Part shown: piece by piece, positions 890-43,405 of the stretch | Numbering within the stretch: position 1 is the stretch's first letter | How the letters are laid out: every line of letters begins with the position of its first letter | Assembly (NCBI GenBank): GCA_002869895.2 | Contig: NEWP02000027.1 | Span: 31,545 to 76,083, forward strand | DNA length: 44,539 bases | Direction: 5' to 3' | From: Nitrospira sp. CG24E | GTDB taxonomy: Bacteria; Nitrospirota; Nitrospiria; Nitrospirales; Nitrospiraceae | Position numbers and translations under genes: made by a program | Notes under the pieces: model-generated | What the model saw: the letters and a program-made list of their open reading frames with translations, nothing else | Database searches by the model: none | Told to the model about the DNA's origin: nothing

Positions 890-1042
890 GTAGAAAGTAG
901 TCAGTAGGACGTAGGTTGAGGTTAAGGCTGTGGAAGGACAATGTGGAATCAGAGAAAAGGCATCATAGGTAAGCAACTCAATCTGTCACGACTGATCTAC
1001 ACAGCCTTAACCTCAACCTCAGCCTTCATAGGCGTCCTACTC
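890..1042. repeat. 7-nt-periodic inverted array spanning the start of the next gene
   Basis: The left arm reads in 7-mers from 890: GTAGAAA, GTAGTCA, GTAGGAC, GTAGGTT, GAGGTTA, AGGCTGT. The right arm (1001-1042) is its inverted form: ACAGCCT, TAACCTC, AACCTCA, GCCTTCA, TAGGCGT, CCTACTC. Positions 913-931 and 1001-1019 are perfect 19-bp inverted repeats, and 904-910 pairs with 1034-1040. The 69-nt loop holds the ribosome site and start codon of the lipoprotein gene at 941, and the right arm lies inside that gene's signal peptide. Confidence 0.85.
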
Positions 1043-2206
1043 CTTACCGGTTGCTTGTCGCCGATTGCCATTCATCGGGCGGTGATCGAGTATGATCGGA
1101 CGGTGAGTTATGTTGAAGCGGATCTCTTGCTCCTGAACATCGCACGTGCCCGTCACCATCGACCGGTGCACTTCACCGCGGTATCCAGCGTGGCTGCCAC
1201 GTTCGATTTTCGTACGAGCGCTGGGATCCGCGGTGGATTCGGACCTACGATCGCCTCGCGCGATCGGCCCTTGAATCTCGAATACAGCGCCAGCATCGCC
1301 GAGAATCCGACGATCACCATCGTCCCGATTACAGGAGAGGAGTTTACGAAACGTATTCTGCAGCCGCTGGATGAAGGCAAGTTCGAATTTCTCGTCCGGC
1401 AGGGCTACGATATCAACATGGTTCTGCGCCTCATGGCGCGCGGGATTGCGATCGACGATGAGAGCGGGCATGCCGTTTCGTTCAATGCGCCTTCGCAAGG
1501 CGAGGGCTACCTGGAATTTCGTCGCCGCCTCCTGCATCTGGCCGGGTTGGATGCGGAGCGAGCACTCTATGTCGGGCCGATCCTCTTCGAAGAGAGTCAC
1601 GCGGTCCGAACGAATCGCGCGCCGAATCCGGACGAAGTCGTAGCAGCCCTGGAAAAGGGCTTTCGCTGGGAAGGAGACAGAGAGGGAATGATCCACACGG
1701 TTCGTCGAAAAGCGGTCGGTCGATTGTTGGTTGCTAACTATGACCCGGCTCGCCTCTCGAACGAAGAACGGCGGTTGCTCCACGAAGAAGCGCAACGAGT
1801 CCCATTGGATTCTGTGTTGGTAGATATTCGTCCTGGCTCTCCGGGAGGCGAATACCCTCTACATGGATCGATCCTGCTTCGCAGTATGAACGCGATCATC
1901 GGATTCGTGGCCAAAAGCATCGAAGAGGAGATAGAAATGATGGTCGAACCTGACCCACGAACCAAGACGGTAGTGAGAAATCCTTCCAGAACGCTCGAAA
2001 TCGAAGAGTCCGATTCGAAGCCTGGCGACTTTGAATTTTCAGTGCTGTTCGACAGCCGGCACTATTCGATCCGCAAGTATCCTGTAAGCCAGGGTATGGT
2101 TCCGAGCTGGAACCAGGAGGCCTTTGCGGTCCTGTCGAACCTGTTCCAAATGACCGTGGCGGATCTCACCAAGTATCCGACACCGGCGATTGCAATTGCC
2201 AAATAG
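941..2206 (+). CDS. Predicted lipoprotein of unknown function
   Basis: 421 aa. The N-terminus is a lipoprotein signal (KQLNLSR n-region, hydrophobic core, LLTGC lipobox with C38). I recognise no catalytic domain. The remainder is soluble and mixed alpha/beta, with a conserved-looking early segment (YVEADLLLLNIARARHHRPVH, about residues 56-76) and a C-terminal region rich in charged residues. It is probably anchored in the periplasm or outer membrane. The only in-frame ATG start before the signal is 941, but its purine-rich site GGAAGGA ends 2 nt upstream, which is too close to be ideal. The start codon also sits in the loop of a 19-bp inverted repeat, so translation could be sensitive to RNA folding. 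The stretch encoding TALTSTSAFIGVLL in the hydrophobic core is the right arm of that repeat. Confidence 0.75.
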   Translation: MWNQRKGIIGKQLNLSRLIYTALTSTSAFIGVLLLTGCLSPIAIHRAVIEYDRTVSYVEADLLLLNIARARHHRPVHFTAVSSVAATFDFRTSAGIRGGFGPTIASRDRPLNLEYSASIAENPTITIVPITGEEFTKRILQPLDEGKFEFLVRQGYDINMVLRLMARGIAIDDESGHAVSFNAPSQGEGYLEFRRRLLHLAGLDAERALYVGPILFEESHAVRTNRAPNPDEVVAALEKGFRWEGDREGMIHTVRRKAVGRLLVANYDPARLSNEERRLLHEEAQRVPLDSVLVDIRPGSPGGEYPLHGSILLRSMNAIIGFVAKSIEEEIEMMVEPDPRTKTVVRNPSRTLEIEESDSKPGDFEFSVLFDSRHYSIRKYPVSQGMVPSWNQEAFAVLSNLFQMTVADLTKYPTPAIAIAK

Positions 2207-14401: not shown

Positions 14402-14422
14402 CAAGATAGCCGCGATAGGCTG

Positions 14423-14530
14423 GTTCATTTGGTTTGTTTAGTTTGTCTGGTTGGTCTTGTTAACCAAATGAACGAGACAAACCTGACAAGCTAGATAACG
14501 GTGTTCTTGGGTTGACGGACTATTCCAGCT
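14423..14530. repeat. 9-nt-periodic inverted array between convergent genes
   Basis: The array reads in 9-mers: GTTCATTTG, GTTTGTTTA, GTTTGTCTG, GTTGGTCTT (14423-14458), then the inverted half GTTAACCAA, ATGAACGAG, ACAAACCTG, ACAAGCTAG (14459-14494). The outer 12 bp (14423-14434 against 14462-14473) are perfectly complementary. The flank ATAACGGTGTTCTTGGGTTG (14495-14514) and the following GACGGACTATTCCAGC closely match the flank of the array at 34202-34331. It lies between the ends of the YfgM-like gene and the transglycosylase gene, where a two-way terminator could act. Confidence 0.85.
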
Positions 14531-20458: not shown

Positions 20459-23073
20459 AATCCATGTCGTCCGCCGATCTGTCCCAGCCAAAATTACCTC
20501 CTCAGAATCTGGAGGCTGAGCAATCGGTTCTCGGTGCAGTACTCCTCGACAATAGCGCGATGGCTAAGGCAAGTGAATTGCTAGTCGAAGAGAACTTCTA
20601 CCGCACGTCGCATCGGAAGATCTACCGTGCGATGGAGGAGTTGTCGGCAACGGGAGAAGTCATCGATCAGATTACATTGACGGAGCGGTTGAAGGCGCAG
20701 GGTGACATTGAAGCCATCGGGGGCGCTGCTTATTTAGCGGAGCTCGTGCAGGGTGTGGCCAGCTCCGCCAATATTCGCTACCACTGCAAGATCGTGCGTG
20801 ACAAGGCATTGCTGCGAGAGCTGATCCATTCTTCCACAGAAGTTCTCACGCGTGGGTACGAAGGCACCTCTTCTGTCGACGACCTGCTCGATTTTGCGGA
20901 GCAGTCTGTATTCAGCATCGCCCAGGGCAAATTGGACAAGTCGTTCACTCCCCTGAACTCCATCATAAAAGAAAGTCTCGACCTCGTCGACAAACTCTCG
21001 AAGCGAAAAGAACATATCACGGGTGTTCCCACCGGATTTTACGACCTGGACGACATCACAGCCGGGCTTCAACCCTCCGATCTCGTGGTGATCGCGGGGA
21101 GGCCCAGCATGGGGAAGACCAGTCTGGCGCTGGGGATGGCCGTGCATGCTGCCATCCACGCGGGCAGCGTGGTTGGAATCTTTAGCCTGGAAATGTCGAA
21201 GCCACAGATCGTCCTCCGCATGTTGAGTTCGGAAGCGCGAGTCGATTCGCACGGCCTCCGAACCGGCAAACTTCAGAAGGAAGACTGGTGGCGTCTGGCG
21301 GAGGCGGCAGGGCGACTGGAACAGGCGCCGATCTATATCGACGATACCGGCGGCATCACCGTGCAACAAATGCGTGGTAAAGCGCGTCGGCTCAAGGCTG
21401 AAAAGGGGTTAGATCTCTTGATAGTCGATTACCTGCAGCTGATGCAGGGGCGGAGTGATTCGGAATCCCGGCAACAGGAGATCTCCGATATTTCTCGCTC
21501 GCTGAAAGCCTTGGCCAAGGAACTCAACGTGCCGGTTGTCGCACTGTCGCAGCTCAGCCGTGCGGTGGAAGCCCGGAAACCACCGGTTCCGATGCTGGCC
21601 GACCTGAGAGAGTGCGTGACCGGCGAGACCCTTGTAAGCCTGAGTGACGGGCGGCGGGTGCCTGTCAAAGACCTCGTCGAATCATCTCCGGATGTTCTTG
21701 CCGTTTCTGAGGAAGGACGCGTGATTCACGCCCAGAGTGACAAGGTCTGGCGCGTGGGCAGTCGACCTATTTTCAGCGTAAGACTTGCCAGTGGGCGAAC
21801 GATTCGTGCGACGGCGGAACATCGCCTGCTCGGAGCCGGTGGGTGGAAGCGTATCAAGGAGATGAATGTCGGCGACAGACTGGCGGTCGCAAGGGAGCTT
21901 CCGGAGCCGTCAACCATTGAACGATGGCCTGATCGCCGTATCGCTCTCCTTGGACAGCTCATTGGCGACGGGAGTTATCTTCGCCATCAGCCCATGCGAT
22001 ACACGACAAGCTCTGAGGAGAATAGCGAAATCGTGGCTGAGGCGGCCCGAGAAGAGTTTGGCGCCGAAGTGAAGAGATATAAGGGGAGAAGAACCTGGCA
22101 TCAACTCTTGATCAGTAGAAACGGTAATCGCTGGCACCCTGCCGGTGTGAACCTGTGGCTGCGGGAATTCGGTATCTTCGGGCAACGATCGTATGAGAAG
22201 CGGATTCCCGGATGTGCATTTCGCCTGGGCAATGCGCAGATCGGTCTCCTGCTTCGTCACCTCTGGGCTACAGATGGCAGCATTACGCCAAGAGCGAAGG
22301 GGCGAGGGGACCATGCGGTGTTCTTCAGCACGAACAGCCTCGGGCTTGCCCAGGATGTGGCCGCGCTGTTACTCAGGCTCGGCATCGTGGCTCGGCTCCA
22401 ACAGGTTCAGCAGGGCAAGTATCGCCCCATGCACATTGTGCGTGTTTCCGGCGGAGCGGATCAGCAGCGTTTCCTCGATCGCGTGGGCGCGTTTGGACCC
22501 CGGAAGGCGGGCGCAGAAAAGTTGGCCGACGCGCTCAAGGGGAAGGCCCACAATACCAATGTAGATACAGTCCCTATTGAGGTGTTCTCAGACGTGAAGC
22601 GGGCTATGCGCGAGAGGGGTATTTCGCAGCGCCAGATAGCGAGTCTCAGAGGAACCTCCTACGGTGGCGCGTCACACTTCCAATTCGCCCCCTCACGCAG
22701 CATGCTGGCCGAGTACGCGACAATCCTCGAAGACGGGGCCCTTGCCTCGCAAGCCACGAGTGACCTCTTCTGGGACCGTATCGTGAGCATTGAACCGGAC
22801 GGGATGGAAGAGGTCTTCGATCTGACGGTTCCAGGACCGGCATCGTGGCTGGCGGACGGGATAGTCAGTCACAACTCCGGCGCCATCGAGCAGGATGCAG
22901 ATGTCGTCATGTTCATTTATCGTGAAGATGTCTACGACCAGAACTCCGAACGGAAGGGCATCGCCGATATCCTTGTGAGTAAACACCGTAACGGCCCGAT
23001 CGGAAGAAAAGAACTTTTTTTCCATGACCGCTTCGCGAAGTTTGAAAGCCTCGATAATCGCGAAGTCGTTTGA
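20455..23073 (+). CDS. dnaB: Replicative DNA helicase DnaB with an intein
   Basis: 872 codons, of which 421 are an intein; the spliced protein would be 451 aa, normal for DnaB. The N-terminal domain (PQNLEAEQSVLGAVLLDN) binds primase; the RecA-like domain has Walker A AGRPSMGKTS (GRPSMGKT at 215-222), Walker B LLIVDYLQLM and ALSQLSRAVE. The intein interrupts the conserved block DLRE/SGAIEQDADVVMF, and the C-extein resumes with Ser. DnaB unwinds DNA ahead of the replication fork as a hexamer. The start overlaps the hisZ-like stop by 4 bp, so translation is coupled. The gene is followed at once by the 125-bp hairpin repeat. Confidence 0.96.
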   Translation: MKSMSSADLSQPKLPPQNLEAEQSVLGAVLLDNSAMAKASELLVEENFYRTSHRKIYRAMEELSATGEVIDQITLTERLKAQGDIEAIGGAAYLAELVQGVASSANIRYHCKIVRDKALLRELIHSSTEVLTRGYEGTSSVDDLLDFAEQSVFSIAQGKLDKSFTPLNSIIKESLDLVDKLSKRKEHITGVPTGFYDLDDITAGLQPSDLVVIAGRPSMGKTSLALGMAVHAAIHAGSVVGIFSLEMSKPQIVLRMLSSEARVDSHGLRTGKLQKEDWWRLAEAAGRLEQAPIYIDDTGGITVQQMRGKARRLKAEKGLDLLIVDYLQLMQGRSDSESRQQEISDISRSLKALAKELNVPVVALSQLSRAVEARKPPVPMLADLRECVTGETLVSLSDGRRVPVKDLVESSPDVLAVSEEGRVIHAQSDKVWRVGSRPIFSVRLASGRTIRATAEHRLLGAGGWKRIKEMNVGDRLAVARELPEPSTIERWPDRRIALLGQLIGDGSYLRHQPMRYTTSSEENSEIVAEAAREEFGAEVKRYKGRRTWHQLLISRNGNRWHPAGVNLWLREFGIFGQRSYEKRIPGCAFRLGNAQIGLLLRHLWATDGSITPRAKGRGDHAVFFSTNSLGLAQDVAALLLRLGIVARLQQVQQGKYRPMHIVRVSGGADQQRFLDRVGAFGPRKAGAEKLADALKGKAHNTNVDTVPIEVFSDVKRAMRERGISQRQIASLRGTSYGGASHFQFAPSRSMLAEYATILEDGALASQATSDLFWDRIVSIEPDGMEEVFDLTVPGPASWLADGIVSHNSGAIEQDADVVMFIYREDVYDQNSERKGIADILVSKHRNGPIGRKELFFHDRFAKFESLDNREVV
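21613..22875 (+). other. DnaB intein with LAGLIDADG homing endonuclease
   Basis: 421 residues, starting with Cys (codon 387 of the precursor, CVTGETLVSL) and ending VSHN before extein Ser. Splicing block B is GRTIRATAEH (the TxxH at intein residues 67-70), block F is EVFDLTVPG, and the terminal HN with a following Ser is canonical. Two LAGLIDADG-type motifs, LLGQLIGDG (112-120) and LRHLWATDG (214-222), indicate a homing endonuclease that still has both acidic residues. A helix-turn-helix-like segment, ISQRQIASLRGTS (337-349), follows. The insert is in frame and uncorrupted, so it is probably active in splicing and perhaps in homing. Confidence 0.95.
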
Positions 23074-23103
23074 CCCTGCCTAACCCCTTTCGTATAATCT
23101 CTA

Positions 23104-23227
23104 GCAGGATGCTGAAAAAGTCCGCCAGCTTCGTTCTCGCGTCGTTCAGGGGCTCAACGTACCGAAGCGTACGCCTCGCCTCTTCGCTCGCTGCGGCCTT
23201 GCTGGTCGGCCATTTTGAGCATCCTGC
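23104..23227. repeat. ~125-bp hairpin repeat, full copy 1
   Basis: 124 bp with perfect 10-bp terminal inverted repeats GCAGGATGCT (23104-23113) and AGCATCCTGC (23218-23227). Inside them, CCGCCAGC (23122-23129) pairs with GCTGGTCGG with a one-base bulge, and a small inner stem CGTAC/GTACG lies around 23158-23173. The whole element can fold into one long hairpin. It sits 30 bp after dnaB. A second full copy is at 37192-37317 and a truncated one at 18-55. Confidence 0.9.
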
Positions 23228-23352
23228 GTGGATATCTCTCTGTCGTCCCACAGGTTTCAGTTTGCTGACTTCGAGGAGATTCAAACTAGTTTTCCGCAAC
23301 CTGCTAGGCGTCAGCACTTGTCTGTATCACCGGTCCCAGCCTGTATGTACTT

Positions 23353-25182
23353 ATGACACTGTCGTTTTTTAATCCTCATTCATTCAAACTGACAAGGTTG
23401 TGGCGCATAGCCTCTGTTCCCTGCCTGATCCTGATTCTGACGGCAGCCTGTGCCGGCCCCTCCAAGGCGCCGGAGGCCCCCAAGTCATCCCTAGATGTGA
23501 AAGCGCCAGTATCTTCTCAGCGTCCTCTCGATGCAGCAGCGTCCTATCACTTTATGTTGGGATATCAAGCAGAGCTCGCGCAGGACATGGATCGTGCGAT
23601 TCAGGAATATCAGGCCGCGCTGAAAGCAGATCCGGCATCTCAATCTGTGAAGGCCAGGCTGGCCGGTCTGTATTTTTCGTTGGGCGACATGCCCAATGCC
23701 GTACGGTATGCGGACCAAGTAGCTGAGGGACAGGGCCAAGATGGTCAGCTGCTCACACAGATGGCAGGCATATTGGCCAGCGCAGGGCAAGGGGAGCGGG
23801 CCGTGAAACTCTTGGATCGTGCGATCGCTGCGGATCCGACATCCGGGGACCCCTATTTTACAAAGGGTCTGTTGCTCCTGAATCTCAAGCGGCAGGCTGA
23901 GGCAGAGCAGGCTATGAGGACAGGCTTGGCGAAGGCTCCTGACTCTGCCGTAGGCCATTACCACTTGGGACGATTGCTTCTTGAGGCGGGGAAAGGAGAT
24001 GAGGCGGCGGCGAGTTTTGAACGGGCAATTGCGGCCAATACATCGTTTGAACCGGCCTACCATGCGCTTGCCTCGCTCTATGAGACTCGGCAGACGCAGG
24101 ATCGCGCGATCGCCATATTACGGAAATATCTTCAGACTGTGAACTCACGAAATCGAGCGATCCGGCACCAGTTGGTTCGGGTCTATATGGTGGCAAAGGA
24201 TTATCAGGGGGCCAGACATGAATTGAATGAGTTGCTGGCGGAGGATCCTTCTGACCTCGATGCTCAGCTTCGGATGGCGCTGCTGTATGGGGAAGAGAAG
24301 CAATATCCCAAGGCCATCGATCAATTGACCCAAGTCCTCAAGGCGCGCCCGACGGAGCTGAAGATCAGAGATTATCTCGGATTTCTCTACGAGGAGTCCA
24401 AGGACACGAAGAAGGCCATTGAGACCTACACATTTAACATCCATCTTGAGCCCTCTTACTTCGAGGGACAACTGCACCTTGGTCTGTTGTACTATCGATT
24501 GAAGCAATTCCCTGAGGCTGTCACCCACTTGACCCAAGCCCGTAAGATCAATCCAAAACAGCCTGAGGCCCACATCGTGCTGGGGCTGACCTATTTGCAG
24601 CAGGAACAGTTCAACGACGCGGTAGCGGCCTTGGAGGAAGGCATCAGCCAGAATCCCAAGAGTGCCGATCTGCATTTCAATCTTGGCACGGCCTACGACA
24701 AGCTCAATCGATTCGATGATGTCGAGCGTGTCATGGGGACCGCCATTAAGCTGGACCCCCACCATGCCGATGCGCTCAATTATCTGGGGTATAGTTATGC
24801 GGAACGGGGGGTCAAGATTGACGAAGCGCTTTCCCTGACCAAACGGGCAGTCGCGCTCAAACCCAGCAATGGGTACTACATTGATAGTCTCGCCTGGGCT
24901 CTATACAAATCCGGCTTGTTCAATGAGGCCTTGACGGAAATCAAGCGCGCTGTTGCCCTTGCCGGGGATGACCCGGTGCTCTATGAACATCTGGGTGATA
25001 TTTACGCCAAGCAACGGAACTTGTCAGAGGCGCGCGAGGCTTGGCTCCGTGCATTGGAACTGGACCCCTCCAATAATAAGCTGATGGACCGATTCCGCGA
25101 GTCAGGGATGGGTGACCCGGCGCAAGAAGAACGTATCCAGCAGGCCAAACAGCGCGTATCTGAGAAGATACACGCTCAGTAA
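23353..25182 (+). CDS. Large tetratricopeptide-repeat lipoprotein
   Basis: 609 aa. A signal peptide with lipobox LTAAC (C33) is followed by a short Pro/Ala linker and, from about residue 60 to the end, some 14-15 tandem TPR units (examples: AIQEYQAALKADPASQSVKA, AVTHLTQARKINPKQPEAHI, ALTEIKRAVALAGDDPVLYE). TPR superhelices are protein-binding scaffolds. Similar lipoproteins are often tied to secretion, pilus or outer-membrane assembly, and the nearby pilA cluster fits, but that is inference. ATG 23353 has only a weak ribosome site. Confidence 0.9.
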   Translation: MTLSFFNPHSFKLTRLWRIASVPCLILILTAACAGPSKAPEAPKSSLDVKAPVSSQRPLDAAASYHFMLGYQAELAQDMDRAIQEYQAALKADPASQSVKARLAGLYFSLGDMPNAVRYADQVAEGQGQDGQLLTQMAGILASAGQGERAVKLLDRAIAADPTSGDPYFTKGLLLLNLKRQAEAEQAMRTGLAKAPDSAVGHYHLGRLLLEAGKGDEAAASFERAIAANTSFEPAYHALASLYETRQTQDRAIAILRKYLQTVNSRNRAIRHQLVRVYMVAKDYQGARHELNELLAEDPSDLDAQLRMALLYGEEKQYPKAIDQLTQVLKARPTELKIRDYLGFLYEESKDTKKAIETYTFNIHLEPSYFEGQLHLGLLYYRLKQFPEAVTHLTQARKINPKQPEAHIVLGLTYLQQEQFNDAVAALEEGISQNPKSADLHFNLGTAYDKLNRFDDVERVMGTAIKLDPHHADALNYLGYSYAERGVKIDEALSLTKRAVALKPSNGYYIDSLAWALYKSGLFNEALTEIKRAVALAGDDPVLYEHLGDIYAKQRNLSEAREAWLRALELDPSNNKLMDRFRESGMGDPAQEERIQQAKQRVSEKIHAQ

Positions 25183-29196: not shown

Positions 29197-30315
29197 ATGA
29201 ATGTACCGTTGCTTGATCTGAAAGCTCAGTTCCAGCCCCTCCGTGCTGAAATTCTGGCAGCGATGGAAACCGTCTGCGACGAACAGGGCTTTGTGCTGGG
29301 GCCGCGCGTCGTATCGTTTGAGGAATCCATCGCCCGGTACACCGGGTCTCGCTACGCGATCGGTTGCGCATCGGGCAGCGATGCGCTGTTGCTCTCTCTC
29401 ATGGCTATGGGGGTGAAGGCAGGAGATGAAGTCATCACCATTCCCTTTACGTTCTTTGCCACGGCAGGAGTGGTTTCACGGTTGGGCGCGAAGCCGGTGT
29501 TCGTGGACATTCAGCCGAATACGTTTAATATCGATCCGGCACTCATTGAGCAGGCGATCACGTCTCACACGAAAGCAATTATTCCCGTGCATCTCTTTGG
29601 GCAATGCGCCGATATGGCTGCGATCAATCGGATCGCGAGCGCGAAGCGGATTCCGGTGATTGAGGATGCTTGCCAAGCCATTGGGGCGGCACAGCAGGGG
29701 AAACGAGCCGGGGTATTGGGAGACACCGGCTGCTTTAGTTTTTTCCCTACCAAGAATTTAGGAGGTTTTGGCGACGGGGGGCTGATCACCACCAACGACC
29801 AAACCCTTGCCGACTCGATGGCGATGCTTCGTGTTCATGGAAGCAAGGTCCGCTATCTCCACGAAGCGGTAGGTATCAATAGTCGATTGGATGCGCTGCA
29901 GGCTGCCGTATTACAGGTCAAACTGAAGTATCTTGACCAGTGGACCGAAGGGCGACGTCGGAATGCCGAACGGTACCAGCAGTTGTTTGCCGGGACGAAG
30001 CATGCGGATTGCGTCACGCTTCCACCGACAGTGCCGGGGAATTATCACGTGTATAACCAATTTACCGTGCGGGCGCCGAAGCGAGATGAGTTGCGGGCTT
30101 TCCTCAAAGAGAAAGGCGTCGGCACAGAAGTATACTATCCGCTTCCGATGCATCTTCAAAATTGCTATCGGGATTTAGGACATCAGAAGGGGTCCTTCCC
30201 GCGGTCAGAACAGGCGGCCGAAGAGGTGATGTCCATTCCGATCTATGCCGAATTGACAGAAGCACAGCAGACCTACGTGGTTGAGATGATCGCGGAGTTC
30301 TATCGGCGTTCCTAG
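29197..30315 (+). CDS. DegT/DnrJ/EryC1 sugar aminotransferase
   Basis: 372 aa from ATG 29197 (AGGAGAG about 10 nt upstream); the frame is open to 29155 without a site. PLP-dependent fold-type I enzyme: MNVPLLDLKAQF, GFVLGPRVVSFEE, GCASGSDALLLSL, IEDACQAIGA, PLP lysine in FFPTKNLGGFGDGG, and the family's VGINSRLDALQAA. These enzymes transfer an amino group to nucleotide-linked keto-sugars used in surface polysaccharides or pilus/flagellar glycans. No partner dehydratase is adjacent. Its stop codon TAG (30313-30315) lies in the boundary motif of the following repeat element, suggesting the repeat trimmed or set the C-terminus. Confidence 0.92.
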   Translation: MNVPLLDLKAQFQPLRAEILAAMETVCDEQGFVLGPRVVSFEESIARYTGSRYAIGCASGSDALLLSLMAMGVKAGDEVITIPFTFFATAGVVSRLGAKPVFVDIQPNTFNIDPALIEQAITSHTKAIIPVHLFGQCADMAAINRIASAKRIPVIEDACQAIGAAQQGKRAGVLGDTGCFSFFPTKNLGGFGDGGLITTNDQTLADSMAMLRVHGSKVRYLHEAVGINSRLDALQAAVLQVKLKYLDQWTEGRRRNAERYQQLFAGTKHADCVTLPPTVPGNYHVYNQFTVRAPKRDELRAFLKEKGVGTEVYYPLPMHLQNCYRDLGHQKGSFPRSEQAAEEVMSIPIYAELTEAQQTYVVEMIAEFYRRS

Positions 30316-30460
30316 CAGGATGCTGAAAAAGTCCGCAAGCCTGACTTGTTCATTTGGTTTGTTTGGTTGAATGAAACTAACCAGATGAACCAAATTAACC
30401 AGATAAACGAAATAAACCAGATCAACCTGTCTCGCCAGTCTCGCTCAGCTGTTCTGCTAG
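30312..30460. repeat. 9-nt-periodic array flanked by both boundary motifs
   Basis: The left boundary CTAGCAGGATGCTGAAAAAG (30312-30331) is matched by an inverted right boundary CAGCTGTTCTGCTAG (30446-30460). Between them 9-mers run from 30348: GTTCATTTG, GTTTGTTTG, GTTGAATGA, AACTAACCA, GATGAACCA, AATTAACCA, GATAAACGA, AATAAACCA, GATCAACCT, GTCTCGCCA, GTCTCGCTC. The left units are TTGG-type, the right units AACC-type, so the array folds back on itself, and the last two units switch to a CTCGCC flavour also found at 33400-33426. This is the only element here with both ends intact. The ribosome site of the next gene starts 2 nt later. Confidence 0.88.
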
Positions 30461-31529: not shown

Positions 31530-31547
31530 GTTTCTTCTAGCATCCGA

Positions 31548-33444: not shown

Positions 33445-34056
33445 CTACATGCCTGATGGAGTTGTCGGATGTGCAGAACTCCCGCCCATATGCGGATCGC
33501 CTTTCATCGCGCCGCCATGGGGGTTGCCATGTCCTTTGCCGGAATCCTTGTGCTGTTGCATCGCTTTCTCATGCTCGGTCTTTTCCTTGGCCCGCTGCTC
33601 CGGAGTCAGCACCGCGAGTACATCCCGCTTGGCCTTGATGGAGACCATGCGTAAACCGACTTGCAGGTCATGGCTCTGCTTCACCTTGGCTTCAACCGCT
33701 CCCAGGTCGGATTTCTCATTCTCGGTCAAGGCCTTCACTTCCCGCTCCGCGACCTGAATGTCGGCTTCGGTCCTGATACGGGTCTTGTCCAGATTGAGTT
33801 GCATCTCTTTCAGCTTTGCCACTTGCTCTGCCGTGAGCCCGATTTCCTGTTCGCGCTCAAGCAGATGCCGGATCAGGTGACCGGTGCCGCTGTGCTTCAT
33901 GCCTGCACCGTATCCACCCATCGAGCTATGCCCGCCGCCTCCGTGTCCTTCCTTACCATAGCCTGGCTCATTGGCCCAGACGGTGGGCAGCCCAACCGCC
34001 AGTGCGAATATCGATGCGACGCCCAGCGTCACGATGGTTCCTGTTCTCTGCTTCAT
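33445..34056 (-). CDS. Spy/CpxP-like periplasmic protein
   Basis: 203 aa, AAGGAGG just before ATG 34056. A signal peptide (IVTLGVASIFALAVGLPTVWA) is followed by a Gly/His-rich segment (GKEGHGGGGHSSMGGYG), then a helical region with LTAEQVAKLKEMQLNLDK and VLTPEQRAKEKTEHEKAM, the LTxxQ-type pattern of the Spy/CpxP and heavy-metal-resistance (CnrR/ZraP) family. The C-terminus is again His/Gly/Met-rich (HGNPHGGAMKGDPHMGGSS), likely metal-binding. It probably works as a periplasmic chaperone or metal-responsive sensor. No two-component system lies beside it. Confidence 0.8.
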   Translation of the reverse strand: MKQRTGTIVTLGVASIFALAVGLPTVWANEPGYGKEGHGGGGHSSMGGYGAGMKHSGTGHLIRHLLEREQEIGLTAEQVAKLKEMQLNLDKTRIRTEADIQVAEREVKALTENEKSDLGAVEAKVKQSHDLQVGLRMVSIKAKRDVLAVLTPEQRAKEKTEHEKAMQQHKDSGKGHGNPHGGAMKGDPHMGGSSAHPTTPSGM

Positions 34057-34201
34057 GTCTGCCTCCTTAGGTTGAACCGAATGAAGATGTTTCTTTCTAC
34101 GATGCGGACTGATCTATTTTGGTATCACACGCTTCAAGAACCAGTGGTTGTAGATTGCCAGATCGACCGAAACAACGCAAGCCAACAACGCAACGAGTGA
34201 G

Positions 34202-34331
34202 GTCTGTCTGGTTCATCTGGTTTGTTTATCTGGTTGAGTTGGTTAGTTTCGTTCAACCAAACAAACGAAATAGACCAAATAAACCAAATAACGGTTTTCT
34301 TGCGCTGGTGGACTTTTTCAGCATTCTGCTA
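34202..34331. repeat. 9-nt-periodic inverted array with boundary motif, overlapping the dnaJ-paralogue stop
   Basis: Units from 34202: GTCTGTCTG, GTTCATCTG, GTTTGTTTA, TCTGGTTGA, GTTGGTTAG, TTTCGTTCA, then the inverted half ACCAAACAA, ACGAAATAG, ACCAAATAA, ACCAAATAA (to 34291), strictly 9 nt apart. The flank 34288-34323 (ATAACGGTTTTCTTG) matches that of the array at 14495. The inverted boundary motif ends CAGCATTCTGCTAG (34318-34331), and its CTA is the TAG stop codon of the minus-strand gene. Confidence 0.87.
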
Positions 34332-35375: not shown

Positions 35376-35476
35376 GTGATGCGTGATGAGGAAACGACGT
35401 AGCCTATATCAAAAGTAACCGCTCGGCGCCCACCACCGATTCATTGGGCACTGTTCACTGATCACCCATCACTGTT
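35376..35476. repeat. 7-nt-periodic inverted array upstream of the dnaJ paralogue
   Basis: GTGATGC, GTGATGA (35376-35389) on the left; on the right CACTGTT, CACTGAT, CACCCAT, CACTGTT in exact 7-nt steps (35449-35476). GTGATGCGTGAT (35376-35387) pairs with ATCACCCATCAC (35461-35472) with one mismatch. The 60-nt loop has no gene. Confidence 0.7.
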
Positions 35477-37144: not shown

Positions 37145-37191
37145 GTCCAGTAGGATACTCCTAATCCGTCCTTCAAGTAAGAAAATAGCTA

Positions 37192-37317
37192 ACAGGCTGT
37201 TGACAAAGTCCGCCAGCATCGTTCTCGCATCGTTCAGGCCCTCAACGTACCCCGAGGGTACGCCTCGGGACCTTCTCTCACTGCGGCCTTGCTGGACGGT
37301 CTTTCTGAACAGCCTGC
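37192..37317. repeat. ~125-bp hairpin repeat, full copy 2
   Basis: 126 bp. CAGGCTGTT (37193-37201) pairs with AACAGCCTG (37308-37316). CCGCCAGC and GCTGGACGG form the second stem, and the inner hairpin is GTACCC-CGA-GGGTAC. Compared with copy 1, the terminal arm reads CAGGCTGTT instead of CAGGATGCT, and the opposite arm changes to match, so pairing is preserved. Confidence 0.92.
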
Positions 37318-37662
37318 GATGGCTTCTGAATGAGTCTGTGGGGATCCAGGCTTTGCATTTTCATCATGCGTCAGCAGTTAACGCCCTGCTGGATGTTCGT
37401 GACATAGCCTAATGCAGGGTCAGATTGTGCAGCCTGGATTCGACAAGCACTGTCGAAGGGGGACGGACCCACGGGCAGTTAACCCCTGAGTCAAACTTGC
37501 GGCGGTGCAAAGGCTGGAGACTGGGAGCCGTTCTGGCCCTGAGATTGCTGGCAATTAACTCGATAAGTCATTGCAATGAGTAAGCGTTGAAGACTTCATG
37601 TTTATCTTCAGGTTAAAGCGGTTGGAGGAAATTACACAACCGTCGCCTTGTCTGCGACTTAA
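37318..37662. other. Gap with a small dyad
   Basis: No convincing gene. TTCGACA-AGCAC-TGTCGAA at 37439-37457 is a perfect 7-bp dyad in the middle of the gap. Confidence 0.4.
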
Positions 37663-37857: not shown

Positions 37858-37912
37858 GGGAGGATCATAAGCTGCCGCGTAAGCAGGGGGCAAGGGGCTT
37901 CTTACAGCAAGG

Positions 37913-38019
37913 GGTAAAGGGGTAGGGGGGTAAAGGGTATGGTGTAAGGCGTGAAACGTGAGGGGTGAAGGGTCAAGGGTCAAGGGGTAGGAGGTAGGAG
38001 AGAAGGGAGGACAGGAAGA
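37913..38019. repeat. Single-arm 7-nt-periodic G-rich array with a G-quadruplex motif
   Basis: 7-mers from 37951: GTGAAAC, GTGAGGG, GTGAAGG, GTCAAGG, GTCAAGG, GGTAGGA, GGTAGGA, GAGAAGG, GAGGACA, in strict register. Upstream, in another phase, GGTAAAG, GGGTAGG, GGGGTAA, AGGGTAT, GGTGTAA (37913-37947). The G-runs at 37911-37937 (GGGG, GGGG, GGGGGG, GGG with 2-4 nt loops) form a canonical G-quadruplex motif on the plus strand. No inverted arm is seen. It lies between the tRNA nucleotidyltransferase and ThiS-like genes. Confidence 0.75.
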
Positions 38020-39416: not shown

Positions 39417-40421
39417 CTACAGTGCCGCTTCCCGGAGAAACTTTGCCGACTCTTCCGGCGCCACAGGATTGATGTAGAACCCCGTGCCCCATTCGAAGCC
39501 GGCCACATGGGTCAGTTTCGGAATGATTTCGATGTGCCAGTGGTAAAAATCGCCGGTCTTCTCATGGAGGGGAGAACTATGGAGGATAAAGTTGTACGAA
39601 GGTCGAGCGAGGACCTTGTCCATTCGGCGCAATGCTTCGGAGAGAATCGGGGCGAGGAACTCGAATTGTAGTTTCTGGCTCTCTTCGAAATAGCCCGCAT
39701 GGCGTTTCGGAAGGATCCACATCTCGAAGGGAAAGCGAGGAGCATAAGGGGTGACGCAGAGGAACTCGGAATTTTCCGCCACGATGCGATCGCCGTCCGC
39801 GAGATCCTGCCGGAGGATATCGCAATAGATGCAGCGCTCTTTCTGCTCGAAATGGGCCCGGCAGCCCTCGATCTCATCCAGGACGCTGGTGGGGACGATC
39901 GGGAGGGCGATGAGCTGTGAGTGGCTGTGCTCGAGTGTGGCGCCGGCTGATGCGCCGTGGTTCTTGAAAATGAGGATGTACCGGAACCGCACGTCTTTCT
40001 TCAGATCGATCATGCGATCGCGATAGGCCCAGAGGACGTCTTCGATCCGCTTTGTCGGCATATCGCCCAAGCTATCGGTATGGCTTGGAGTCTCGATGAT
40101 GACTTCATGCGCGCCGATCCCATTCATGCGATCGTAGAGGCCGAGGCCCTGGCGGTCGAGATCGCCTTCGATTTGGAGCGCGGGGAACTTGTTGGGCACG
40201 ACACGTACGGTCCAGTTCGGGCCGTTGGGCGCCACCGGCTGAGGCCGGTAGGCCATGATTTCTCTCGGCGTCAGCCGCTCTTGTCCTGGACAAAAGGGGC
40301 AGAGGGTTGCCGTCAATGGCCGAGAGGCCTGTACGGGAATGAAGTCGTGGGGTCTGGCGTTCCGTTCCGTCGAAATAATCACCCACCGACCGACAATCGG
40401 ATCACGTCGTAAATCAGGCAT
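39417..40421 (-). CDS. galT: Galactose-1-phosphate uridylyltransferase
   Basis: 334 aa from ATG 40421, with GGAGGG about 6 nt upstream on the minus strand; the frame upstream passes through a repeat and is not used. HIT-superfamily GalT: MPDLRRDPIVGRWVIIS, zinc cysteines CPFC, the active-site histidine triad as LEHSHSQLIALP, and the second half with FYHWHIEIIPKL. It exchanges UMP between UDP-glucose and galactose-1-phosphate; relatives act on other sugar phosphates (ADP-glucose), which the variant HSHSQ in place of HPHGQ may hint at. The GH57 gene upstream on the same strand suggests a storage-polysaccharide setting. Confidence 0.9.
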   Translation of the reverse strand: MPDLRRDPIVGRWVIISTERNARPHDFIPVQASRPLTATLCPFCPGQERLTPREIMAYRPQPVAPNGPNWTVRVVPNKFPALQIEGDLDRQGLGLYDRMNGIGAHEVIIETPSHTDSLGDMPTKRIEDVLWAYRDRMIDLKKDVRFRYILIFKNHGASAGATLEHSHSQLIALPIVPTSVLDEIEGCRAHFEQKERCIYCDILRQDLADGDRIVAENSEFLCVTPYAPRFPFEMWILPKRHAGYFEESQKLQFEFLAPILSEALRRMDKVLARPSYNFILHSSPLHEKTGDFYHWHIEIIPKLTHVAGFEWGTGFYINPVAPEESAKFLREAAL

Positions 40422-40430
40422 CTTTCCCTC

Positions 40431-40547
40431 CGTGAAACGTGAAACGTGAACCGTGAAGCGCAAAACGTGTGGGGTTAGATGTAAGAAGGTAGTCCTTCTC
40501 CCGGCCCTGTTTCGTTTCACGTTTCACGACTAACGCCTCACGTCCGT
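40431..40547. repeat. 7-nt-periodic inverted array between GH57 and galT genes
   Basis: Left units CGTGAAA, CGTGAAA, CGTGAAC, CGTGAAG, CGCAAAA (40431-40465). Right units CGTTTCA, CGTTTCA, CGACTAA, CGCCTCA, CGTCCGT (40513-40547). 40431-40446 and 40513-40528 are a perfect 16-bp inverted repeat. The array lies 10 nt upstream of galT, in the leader of its transcript. Confidence 0.88.
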
Positions 40548-40549
40548 TA

Positions 40550-42751
40550 TCACACTCGCCATAGACTCGCTTCAAATTCCGGACCTGGAACGCTGAAGGT
40601 CGCAGGCTTGTGTTGCGGGTAGCGTGTGACTTCCAAACCATGTTCAATCACGAGAATGACTATGCGGAATTCTTGTCCTTCTGTGAGTTGTAAGTCCTTG
40701 AATGGCACCGCCAGTTCGACGATCTTCCTATGATAGATCGATTGATACGCGCCGATCTCTTGCCAGGATCGGCTGTCGAGTTTTTGCGCGAGTCGAAATT
40801 GGGCTGGCCCTGACGGCGCAAGAGAAAACGACAGGCGATAGAGCTGATTGGGTGTCTGCACCTGCAACTCGACCGTCAGCTCCGCTTGCCGCGCGTGCGA
40901 TTGCTCGTCCGGATCGAGCCGAAGGTAGAATTGCTCAAGACTCCAACCGAACCGGATATCGGTCAGCACCCCCGCGGCTTTCCACATCGCGCCAAGCGGC
41001 GGCTGAGTCGTGATTCTGCCTGCGCCGCGCCATTCGAAAAAGTCGGTCGCGAGTCCATCGATCGAGGGATTCAGCAAGGAGAGAGGCGCAGTGATGAGAT
41101 CTGCATCCGGCATGTTACGGGGACGACAGATCGGCTGATTCAACAGTTCCGGCGGGGTCAGTCCTGCGATCGTCCAGACGTTCCGAAGATGCGTGCGAAA
41201 GAGGCGATCGAACTCCTCTTTATAGTCGGTATCGAAGTCATCTCCATACCACCAGAACCAATCGCTGCCCTCGTCGGCATAGAGTTCATCCCAGGCTGCT
41301 TTCGCGCGATCCGCGGGGAGTGTGGCCGCGGTCTCTGCAAGAAGGGATCGGGCATGATTCACCAAATCCCATCCCTGATTGTCTTCCTGATGGCCGATCC
41401 AGATCTTATAGTCCTGATTGATCCAGGAGCCGGAATGGAGGTGGCTGATTCGATGCGCGGCAGGCGCGGCTGCGAGCGCTTCTGATATCGTCGCTGTAGT
41501 GGTGCTGGTTCCGTCAGTATCGAGCGCGCCGGTTGAGCAGGCTTTGTAGAGGAGTGAGAGAAACTCTTCGCCCCCCTCGTGGTAATGTTCCCATGGATTC
41601 TCACCATCGAGGACAATGGCGATCGTGACCTGTTCCTGTGGCGCATCGTAAATGATATGGCGCAGCCGACGGAGGACATCCTCGGCGGCTCGATCAGGAG
41701 TGGTCTTATGGTAGACGAACCCAAAGGCGTCGGAAATCTCCCGATCGCGAAACAGGATTGTGACGTCTTGGCCCTCCGGTCCGATCTGGTAAGGCTGATA
41801 CAGATCCCGGTGGCGCTGCCACGGTTGCTGGGCCGCCTCGAGTGAGCGAGCGAGGATGCCCTCGTCGGTCGCCAGCCAGCGCAGTCCAACCTTCGGCAAC
41901 ATGGGAATCAGTTCCGGACAGACGGAGCCCTCCGATGGCCAGAGGCCTGCTGGCGCCCGGCCAAATGTGGCGGTGTGAAACTCAACGGCCCGTTGTAGCT
42001 GGGTCTCTGCATCCTCCGGCGCACGGAATCGCGAGGGGAGCGGGAGATCCGGTCTGGCGCGCCGAGTGAAGTCTGTATCGATGACGAGCGGCAGGATCGG
42101 GTGAAAGAAGGGGGTTGTCGTCAGCTCGATTTGTTCCCGTTCCATGAGCCGTCGATAGAGCGGAACGATGTCCCGTACGGCAGAGAGTTGGAGGGCCAGC
42201 ACCTCCTGTTTATCTTCTTCCGTGAAGCCCCGGTTTTTTGCTCGTAGCGCAGCCAGGCGCGGATAGCGATTGACGGTGCCATATCCGAACCAGGCGAGGT
42301 TGTGCCAGGTCTGCAAATCCAGGAGATCTTGTGTGGAAAATTGCCGTGCAACCCGTTCCAAGTCGCGGCCCACGACGTCGGCCCCGCGTTTCACGAGCAA
42401 TTCATGATAGCGTGGGTAGGGGCGTACCATCGTAGCCCAATTGGCGGAGAAAAAGTGCCGGACAAGAAAGGCCTTCTCTTCCGGGCTCAAGTCCGCTGCG
42501 GGACGTTGCGCATACTCCAGGAAGAGGTCGCGCACCGTTCCTGATCCAATTTCTTGCAGCTGTCGCAAGAGTGAGGGCGTAAAGTTAAACGTGGCTTTGA
42601 CAGAGGGAAACTTCTCCAGCCCATAGGCCATATCATAGTAGGCCTTGGTGGCATGGAGACGCACCCAGGGCATACTGGCAGACCCCGCCACCGGGTCTGT
42701 GTAATAGGGCTGGTGCATGTGCCAGAGAAAACAGATGCGGGCAGTTTTCAT
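40550..42751 (-). CDS. GH57 family glycoside hydrolase
   Basis: 733 aa. GH57 signature HMHQPYY at 11-17 (conserved region 1), TTTPFFHPILP, then GLWPSEGSVCPEL with the nucleophile glutamate (E274), and LDGENPWEHY with the acid/base aspartate (D382). The C-terminal 280 residues form the helical and beta-sandwich extension of the long amylase-type members. GH57 enzymes act on alpha-glucans (amylase, branching, 4-alpha-glucanotransferase); the exact reaction cannot be told here. No signal peptide, so cytoplasmic. Followed on the same strand by galT, which suggests glycogen or maltodextrin metabolism. No strong ribosome site before ATG 42751. Confidence 0.92.
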   Translation of the reverse strand: MKTARICFLWHMHQPYYTDPVAGSASMPWVRLHATKAYYDMAYGLEKFPSVKATFNFTPSLLRQLQEIGSGTVRDLFLEYAQRPAADLSPEEKAFLVRHFFSANWATMVRPYPRYHELLVKRGADVVGRDLERVARQFSTQDLLDLQTWHNLAWFGYGTVNRYPRLAALRAKNRGFTEEDKQEVLALQLSAVRDIVPLYRRLMEREQIELTTTPFFHPILPLVIDTDFTRRARPDLPLPSRFRAPEDAETQLQRAVEFHTATFGRAPAGLWPSEGSVCPELIPMLPKVGLRWLATDEGILARSLEAAQQPWQRHRDLYQPYQIGPEGQDVTILFRDREISDAFGFVYHKTTPDRAAEDVLRRLRHIIYDAPQEQVTIAIVLDGENPWEHYHEGGEEFLSLLYKACSTGALDTDGTSTTTATISEALAAAPAAHRISHLHSGSWINQDYKIWIGHQEDNQGWDLVNHARSLLAETAATLPADRAKAAWDELYADEGSDWFWWYGDDFDTDYKEEFDRLFRTHLRNVWTIAGLTPPELLNQPICRPRNMPDADLITAPLSLLNPSIDGLATDFFEWRGAGRITTQPPLGAMWKAAGVLTDIRFGWSLEQFYLRLDPDEQSHARQAELTVELQVQTPNQLYRLSFSLAPSGPAQFRLAQKLDSRSWQEIGAYQSIYHRKIVELAVPFKDLQLTEGQEFRIVILVIEHGLEVTRYPQHKPATFSVPGPEFEASLWRV

Positions 42752-43269: not shown

Positions 43270-43388
43270 CGCGACGAGCGTGATGGGCGAGAAACGCGGG
43301 ACGGGTTGATCTGGTCTCTCTGGTCTTTCTGGTTTTTTCGGTCATCCGGTCCTGAGAACCAGACAGACTGAACGGACCAGATCAACTG
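43270..43388. repeat. 9-nt-periodic inverted array after the VanZ-like gene
   Basis: Units from 43270: GCGCGACGA, GCGTGATGG, GCGAGAAAC, GCGGGACGG, GTTGATCTG, then GTCTCTG (7 nt), GTCTTTCTG, GTTTTTTCG, two 8-nt units, and the inverted half AACCAGACA, GACTGAACG, GACCAGATC, AACTGAAG. GTTGATCTGGTC (43306-43317) and GACCAGATCAAC (43374-43385) are perfectly complementary. It combines the GC-rich flavour of 33283-33426 with the TTGG/AACC flavour of the other arrays. Confidence 0.83.
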
Positions 43389-43405
43389 AAGCCTGGAGAA
43401 ACGGT

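Follow-up and report, generated by a model that had tools for sequence, protein, structure and literature searches.

Paired heptamer arrays between genes of Nitrospira keep period, pairing and orientation while the repeated word changes

At one intergenic site of Nitrospira, the spacer between a GH57 glycosidase gene and a galT-like gene, about 27 species keep a 7-nt period and two matched inverted arms despite differing words. Intergenic heptamers recur in unrelated bacteria, and we have found no accepted answer to why the unit should be 7. Here, a single orthologous spacer can be followed through dozens of species in which the word is replaced and the period, pairing and orientation stay, so that slippage with template switching, selection on an RNA stem and a word-reading protein become separable by sequence data and simple constructs. 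A 9-nt class present in the same genomes behaves differently and provides a built-in contrast.

The stretch of DNA analysed (the window, 44,539 nt) corresponds to positions 31545–76083 of a contig from a Nitrospira MAG with an assembly of 3.45 Mb. Its galT-like gene is 99% identical to the counterpart in a Nitrospiraceae MAG, and nearly all of the following matches are from Nitrospira. A CGTGAAA-type heptamer hairpin at 40431–40547 occupies the gap from the stop codon of the GH57 gene to the ribosome-binding site of the galT-like gene (Table 1). In the sense order, the spacer reads stop, GGACGTGAGGCGTTAGT CGTGAAACGTGAAACG, loop, CGCTTCACGGTTCACGTTTCACGTTTCACG, GAGGGAAAG and ATG. The first-pass annotation had described this locus as a hairpin in 7-nt register, and we could confirm the description. 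The words CGTGAAA, CGTGAAA, CGTGAAC and CGTGAAG and the inverted CGTTTCA and CGTTTCA are present in register, TRF reported a period of 7, and the arms are perfect over 16 bp (40431–40446 and 40513–40528), 83% matched over 23 nt and about 30 bp long when extended. The sense RNA of this hairpin has a folding energy of −48.7 kcal/mol, compared with −33.9 ± 3.7 for shuffled sequences (z = −4.0).

Table 1. Repeat arrays, hairpins and flanking genes in the window
Feature	Coordinates	Strand	Remark
Weak-register hairpin, perfect 20-bp arms 913–932/1000–1019	890..1042	.	3′ arm inside lipoprotein gene 941–2206
9-nt class hairpin, convergent spacer	14420..14490	.	
9-nt class hairpin and A/C-rich array, composite spacer opening with TAGCAGGATGCTGAAAAAG repeat	30347..30444	.	
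9-nt class hairpin	34196..34293	.	common to G018 at the same site; MITE-like repeat instead in G019
7-nt hairpin (GTGATGC GTGATGA / CACTGAT CACCCAT CAC)	35376..35472	.	ttuA-like/dnaJ-like spacer
Single-arm array, 8-nt register 37909–37937 turning to 7-nt 37941–38000	37909..38005	.	TRF period 8 on first part
galT-like gene, GalP_UDP_transf domains	39417..40421	-	downstream neighbour of the hairpin; ATG at 40421
7-nt array, + strand G-rich (CGTGAAA x2, CGTGAAC, CGTGAAG, CGCAAAA), one hairpin arm	40431..40469	.	adjoins galT-like ribosome-binding site GGAGGGAAAG
Second hairpin arm (CGTTTCA CGTTTCA CGACTAA CGCCTCA CG)	40513..40543	.	7 bases short of GH57 gene end (40550)
GH57 glycosidase gene	40550..42751	-	upstream neighbour of the hairpin
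9-nt class hairpin	43301..43390	.	similarity to close relative L009 ends at hairpin edge (43261)

We compared this spacer in 37 Nitrospira orthologues. In a lag test pooled over the species whose spacer has at least 40 bases, the excess at lag 7 reached a z of 18.9 and was followed by lags 14 and 21, whereas lag 8 gave 1.4 and lag 9 gave −1.7. The words found at the site were GTGAAAC, GTAAGGG/GTGAGGG, GTGCTGA/GTATTGA, GTTCAAT/GATCAGT, TTGAATG/AATGATG and GGCAATA/GGCTATA, depending on the species. A second co-directional spacer had a lag-7 z of 9.0, and the neighbouring divergent promoter spacer gave no signal (z of −2.0). The two arms change together: on 27 distinct GH57–galT spacers, the co-variation of the 5′ arm with the reverse-complemented 3′ arm was 0.249 versus 0.000 ± 0.031 (0 of 20000 permutations), and it was 0.308 in the second spacer (1 of 20000 permutations). 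It was absent in the divergent spacer and in a single-arm spacer. The close relative L009 (95% identity across 4.9 kb) differs in a single arm, by an additional heptamer and a change of two bases; its other arm is unchanged.

Three further loci of the window had been assigned to the same 7-nt class, and they fared unequally. The hairpin at 35376–35476 stood, having GTGATGR words and arms of 20 nt matched at 80%. A GTGATGR-like hairpin is found in this ttuA–dnaJ spacer also in G024, G027, G028 and G030, G018 has a lone arm with a different word (GTGCTGA), and no array was found there in G012, G019, G020, G022 and G025. At 890–1042, the inverted arms are genuine (perfect, 20 bp), but the proposed 7-nt register (GTAGAAA, GTAGTCA, GTAGGAC, GTAGGTT) is weak and was called neither by TRF nor by the array scan. 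The 3′ arm of this hairpin encodes the hydrophobic stretch of the lipoprotein signal peptide (window 941–1060); in G019 a MITE-like repeat lies in place of the hairpin and the signal peptide differs. The array at 37913–38019 has a single arm as described; the accompanying statement that mixed or 8-nt dominated arrays are missing from the window does not hold strictly, since TRF detects an 8-nt start at 37909–37937 which then turns into a 7-nt register.

The period of the arrays was measured on 0.70 Mb of the own genome, on three congeners (about 0.4 Mb from each) and on 39 galT neighbourhoods of named Nitrospira, using a simple hexamer-based gene caller and a criterion of 75% identity at lag p across 28 positions. 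In the own genome we observed 34 arrays of period 7, 44 of period 9 and none of period 8, together with harmonics at 14, 18 and 21; any other period had at most 4 arrays, and shuffled spacers gave fewer than one array per period. The corresponding numbers for periods 7, 9 and 8 were 13, 22 and 0 in G007, 28, 33 and 0 in G019, 1, 3 and 0 in G028, and 22, 6 and 0 in the galT neighbourhoods. One half of the own-genome sample had been picked close to BLAST matches of the query; this half is rich in CGTGAAA and inflates the 7-nt count. The other, unbiased half had identical peaks at 7 and 9. Hence, in these samples, the two periods form sharp peaks instead of a smooth distribution, as the first-pass annotation had anticipated in postulating discrete types. 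An inverted repeat score of at least 12 was obtained for 171 of 835 spacers versus 2 in the shuffles. Arrays of period 8 do occur in Acidobacteria and Deltaproteobacteria loci alongside 7-nt arrays, some of them in inverted pairs, and therefore the lack of period 8 is a property of Nitrospira and not a general rule. Such 8-nt arrays, with GGGTAATC-type words among others and some in inverted pairs, were seen at L053, L055, L070, L078 and L082. The G007 sample also contained seven hairpin spacers with a best period of 15, a possible additional class.

The arrays have a near-fixed orientation. The G-rich array comes first (5′) in 34 of 35 paired 7-nt arrays and in 61 of 62 pairs of the 9-nt class. 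This order reads identically from both strands, and words of the TCAGCNN type reverse the G/C skew, yet keep the single order. Two arrays close together and convergent were counted as 35 pairs, and more than half of the spacer arrays in the own sample look single. In the 7-nt hairpins, the 5′ arm starts at a median of 5 nt past the stop codon and the 3′ arm ends 16 nt ahead of the next start; the medians for the 9-nt hairpins are 14 and 52 nt, respectively. Hairpins were found in 9% of the divergent spacers, compared with 15% and 16% of the co-directional and convergent ones. Hairpins and MITE-like repeats seem to use one permissive slot behind stop codons.

The 7-nt and 9-nt types had also been taken as parallel classes, and this view did not hold when their units, loops and arms were compared. 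The 9-nt class looks like a single dispersed family kept to a consensus. The own genome, G019 and G007 share its word GGTYTRTYT (the within-minus-between similarity of 0.011 is not significant). Unit positions 2, 3, 7 and 9 are about 90–100% invariant, positions 6 and 8 vary by transitions, and the profile is equal in the three genomes. Its loops are related, 45 of 61 being above the shuffled 99th percentile (in part as array remnants), and the apex GGTTGAACGAAACTAACC recurs among them. Its arms are interchangeable, own-copy pairing being only a little better than other-copy pairing (21.2 vs 18.7). The words of the 7-nt class, on the other hand, are genome-specific (0 of 2000 permutations), the main ones being CGTGAAA in the own genome, AGTGGTG in G019 and GTGCTGA among others in G007. 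Few loops of this class are related, 6 of 43 exceeding the shuffled 99th percentile, and each arm matches its own partner far better than it matches arms elsewhere in that genome (16.2 vs 8.2; 0 of 5000 permutations). Within the unit, CGTGA is firm and the last two bases are loose. Unequal conservation of the unit positions was observed for both the 7-nt (p = 3e-14) and the 9-nt units (p = 2e-59), where both p-values are too small, as the counts within an array are not independent.

The two classes also vary in copy number. Exact GTGCTGAGTGCTGA occurred 0 to 58 times per genome and GTGAAACGTGAAAC 1 to 45 times, and within the genus the reversed control word had zero matches; for the nonamer search such a control was unusable, since reversing the pattern nearly restores the repeat in another phase. 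Genomes with a completeness of 90% or more had 1–45 GTGAAAC pairs and 0–87 nonamer pairs. G017, with 10 matches to GTGAAAC, lacks the 9-nt pattern altogether, which indicates that the classes vary independently between species. In a phylum sample of 148 genomes, GTGAAACGTGAAAC is nearly restricted to the family Nitrospiraceae, only two genomes outside the family having it, and several of the outside families carry a few copies of the reversed control word (CAAAGTG)2, that is, of other heptamers. As to a spread of the arrays by plasmids, one weak, partial match was obtained among 72,556 records.

Several known identities were rejected for these hairpins. An intrinsic terminator is not indicated, as a U-tract (at least 5 T in the next 8 nt) followed 0 of 63 class-7 and 0 of 49 class-9 hairpins, and a known RNA family is not either, as among the window sequences only a tRNA exceeded the Rfam threshold. 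A G-quadruplex does not fit the main words CGTGAAA, GTGCTGA and AGTGGTG, which have no run of three G, though a few G-rich arrays exist. Provision of stop codons in all frames was considered because many words contain TGA or TAA, and it was set aside because several words and the 9-nt G/T arm do not have them. A coding function was discarded as well. Most arrays are in spacers, in line with their description as intergenic elements, and this description has to be qualified for some 7-nt arrays that overlap called genes and for the one window hairpin whose 3′ arm is coding.

Selection on an RNA stem would tolerate G.U and remove A.C mismatches. In co-directional spacers, the ratio of G.T to A.C stem mismatches was 90 : 92 for class 7 (0.49, CI 0.42–0.57) and 119 : 112 for class 9, and it was 209 : 204 when both classes were pooled. 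With such nearly equal counts, no selection on the RNA strand was detected. A small control of tRNA stems from the same DNA gave 5 : 0. In cleaner stems (at least 85% paired), the ratio of 16 : 8 was not significant and pointed towards RNA selection, and a real bias would be diluted by register errors in the repetitive arms; a weak effect of RNA selection may therefore exist. Convergent spacers had a deficit of G.T (23 : 45), which is taken as chance, the strand being arbitrary in this case.

The reading that we prefer, tentatively and at a little short of an even chance, is that these are palindromic heptamer repeats at the DNA level, growing by slippage of one unit, with arms matched by template switching, and tolerated behind stop codons. 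A short array would gain or lose whole 7-nt units by slippage. An inverted copy would adjoin the array. The match between the two arms would be maintained at the DNA level, and the most likely mechanism is template switching from one arm of the imperfect palindrome to the other, a process reported to homogenise inverted-repeat arms, imperfect ones included (PMC8604942 and PMC7202029, in their accessible parts). The pair would occupy the stretch that follows a stop codon and precedes the next ribosome-binding site, harmless to promoter and coding sequence. Drift of the word, followed by re-homogenisation within the genome, would produce the species dialects, while period, pairing and orientation would persist. 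We infer both mechanisms, as well as the lack of a dedicated function, from these patterns; the transcript would fold as a stem-loop, and no selection for that was detected. A functional stem-loop between cistrons in the mRNA, guarding the upstream 3′ end and the downstream 5′ end or insulating translation, with RNA selection keeping the pairing and leaving the word free, appears unlikely to us. In its favour, the galT-spacer hairpin takes up everything between the stop codon and the ribosome-binding site and is found in most species, hairpins are more frequent in co-directional and convergent (15 and 16%) than in divergent spacers (9%), and the genus-wide co-variation of the arms could come from selection instead of template switching. 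However, the 413 transition-type mismatches have no G.U excess (0.51, CI 0.46–0.56), no U-tract was found in the 112 hairpins of classes 7 and 9, the presence at the ttuA–dnaJ spacer is patchy, G028 is nearly empty of hairpins, and selection on a stem gives no reason for a period of exactly 7.

The slippage and template-switch model itself leaves unexplained why the unit is 7, why there is one orientation, why some positions are firmer and how a dialect spreads. The near-fixed orientation counts against template switching as the sole process, which would be expected to produce either order; uneven conservation of the unit positions counts against neutral slippage, which predicts none; and a dialect common to sites with unrelated loops requires some exchange between sites. 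These gaps leave room for a word-reading factor. In one version, each heptamer would be the site of a DNA- or RNA-binding protein, the inverted arrays giving avidity and the dialects following the protein. The unequal conservation of unit positions in both classes, the fixed orientation and the genome-wide dialect are consistent with this, as is the interpretation of the paired MTYCTGA heptamers of Geobacter as regulator sites in the accessible part of PMC2700814. Nevertheless, sites of the same genome differ at several word positions, which is odd for one protein, and no candidate protein was found, and we regard a binding array as decidedly improbable. We give only a slim chance to a trans-acting factor that would work in 7-nt steps, change its specificity between species and rewrite both arms, be it a protein that reads the word or an activity that adds heptamers from a template. 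Equally doubtful to us are REP-like palindromes moved by a Y1 (RAYT-type) transposase. The repeats are dispersed and variable in copy number, with sites vacant in some relatives, and the GTGAAAC count tracks the Y1_Tnp count (rho 0.74, n = 20; 0.77 when corrected for size), a correlation that has no phylogenetic correction and concerns one of three words tested. Among 32 Nitrospira genomes screened, neither GTGCTGA nor the 9-nt class followed Y1_Tnp in this way. Moreover, a 7- or 9-nt array lies near only 3 of 22 Y1_Tnp loci and at none of the three own-genome copies (flanks of about 1.5 kb), G018 has 57 nonamer matches without any Y1_Tnp hit, G017 lacks the nonamer despite its four Y1_Tnp hits, and the 7-nt loops are mainly unrelated. 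At the hairpin foot there is no conserved tetranucleotide: of the 282 arm ends, 13 carry GTAG and 7 carry CGTC, where about 7–8 of each are expected by chance. Membership of REP/RAYT was rejected on this ground and on the few adjoining loci. The correlation thus is a lead only, with no physical linkage. With regard to a MITE, the arms extend to the stop codon and the ribosome-binding site, and no clean insertion junction could be aligned.

Repeats of this kind are already known. Heptamers that often face each other in pairs have been described from Xanthomonas, whose repeats come closest to those of Nitrospira, and from Geobacter; Beggiatoaceae and cyanobacteria have heptamers in direct repetition. 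According to the accessible part of the Xanthomonas report (Rehm et al. 2015, PMC4692102), X. campestris and X. axonopodis have about 185 intergenic GGGAATC heptamers per genome, with 70–75 inverted pairs each, 16% of the repeats being convergent and 7–8% divergent, 28 nt behind the upstream gene; these are shares of repeats and ours are shares of spacers, so that the comparison is approximate. The Nitrospira 7-nt class likewise has 7-nt units, convergent pairs and a post-stop, rarely divergent placement, but not G-tracts. Both have unequal conservation of the unit, and the Xanthomonas loci are not at the same genes in the two species. The Xanthomonas repeats are one G-rich word read as G-quadruplex-forming, and the same part of that report describes no turnover, co-variation or 9-nt class. 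In Geobacter metallireducens, the accessible text describes sixteen intergenic copies of a class of tandem heptamers (MTYCTGA x5), mostly in facing pairs, as one word interpreted as regulator sites, with no comparison between species (PMC2700814). TAACTGA repeats of Beggiatoaceae, cyanobacteria and Bacteroidetes are many intergenic tandem heptamers per genome with no known function; unlike those of Nitrospira, they are nearly always direct, with one indirect case, are placed shortly before start codons and have one fixed word (PMC4679880). The STRR heptamers of Calothrix and Nostoc are intergenic with several words per genome, as far as they are cited in the accessible part of PMC4692102, with copies such as ttgtcagttgtcagttgtca (PMC2408588). 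REP/REPIN elements are dispersed intergenic palindromes of fixed orientation and variable copy number, with conserved sequence on the scale of a 16-mer, adjoining RAYT genes (PMC3116915); those of Nitrospira differ in having arms made of heptamer arrays, changing words and no RAYT linkage. What is new here is the turnover of words at a fixed site, the co-changing arms, the genome dialects and the separate 9-nt family of Nitrospira; our search of the openly accessible literature gave no report of fixed-site word turnover, co-changing arms or such a 9-nt family.

The sites of the 9-nt class in the window are variably occupied. At 30347–30444, G019 also has a 9-nt array, different inserts are present in G012, G028 and G030, and G018, G020, G022 and G025 are without such a repeat. 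The spacer 34056–34329 contains what is left of a gene (about 600 bp), with the 9-nt hairpin located at the deletion; this gene appears intact, with the same neighbours, in G020, G024, G025, G027, G028 and G030.

Other dispersed repeats were observed beside the arrays. A MITE-like repeat of about 200 bp with inverted ends TAGCAGGATGCTSAAAAAG and CTTTTTSAGCATCCTGCTA is at 23073–23353 of the window, with half copies at 30315 and 34300, and its end motif has 40 matches in 0.74 Mb. It often opens at a stop codon and, in relatives, fills spacers that hold 7- or 9-nt hairpins here; such repeats or their halves are also found at two 9-nt sites. A dispersed repeat of about 130 bp lies at 37189–37320, with copies 80–90% identical across many Nitrospira genomes, and a further family of the own genome, with the core GTGCTCGCGCAACGCGCGG, occupies about 20 spacers.
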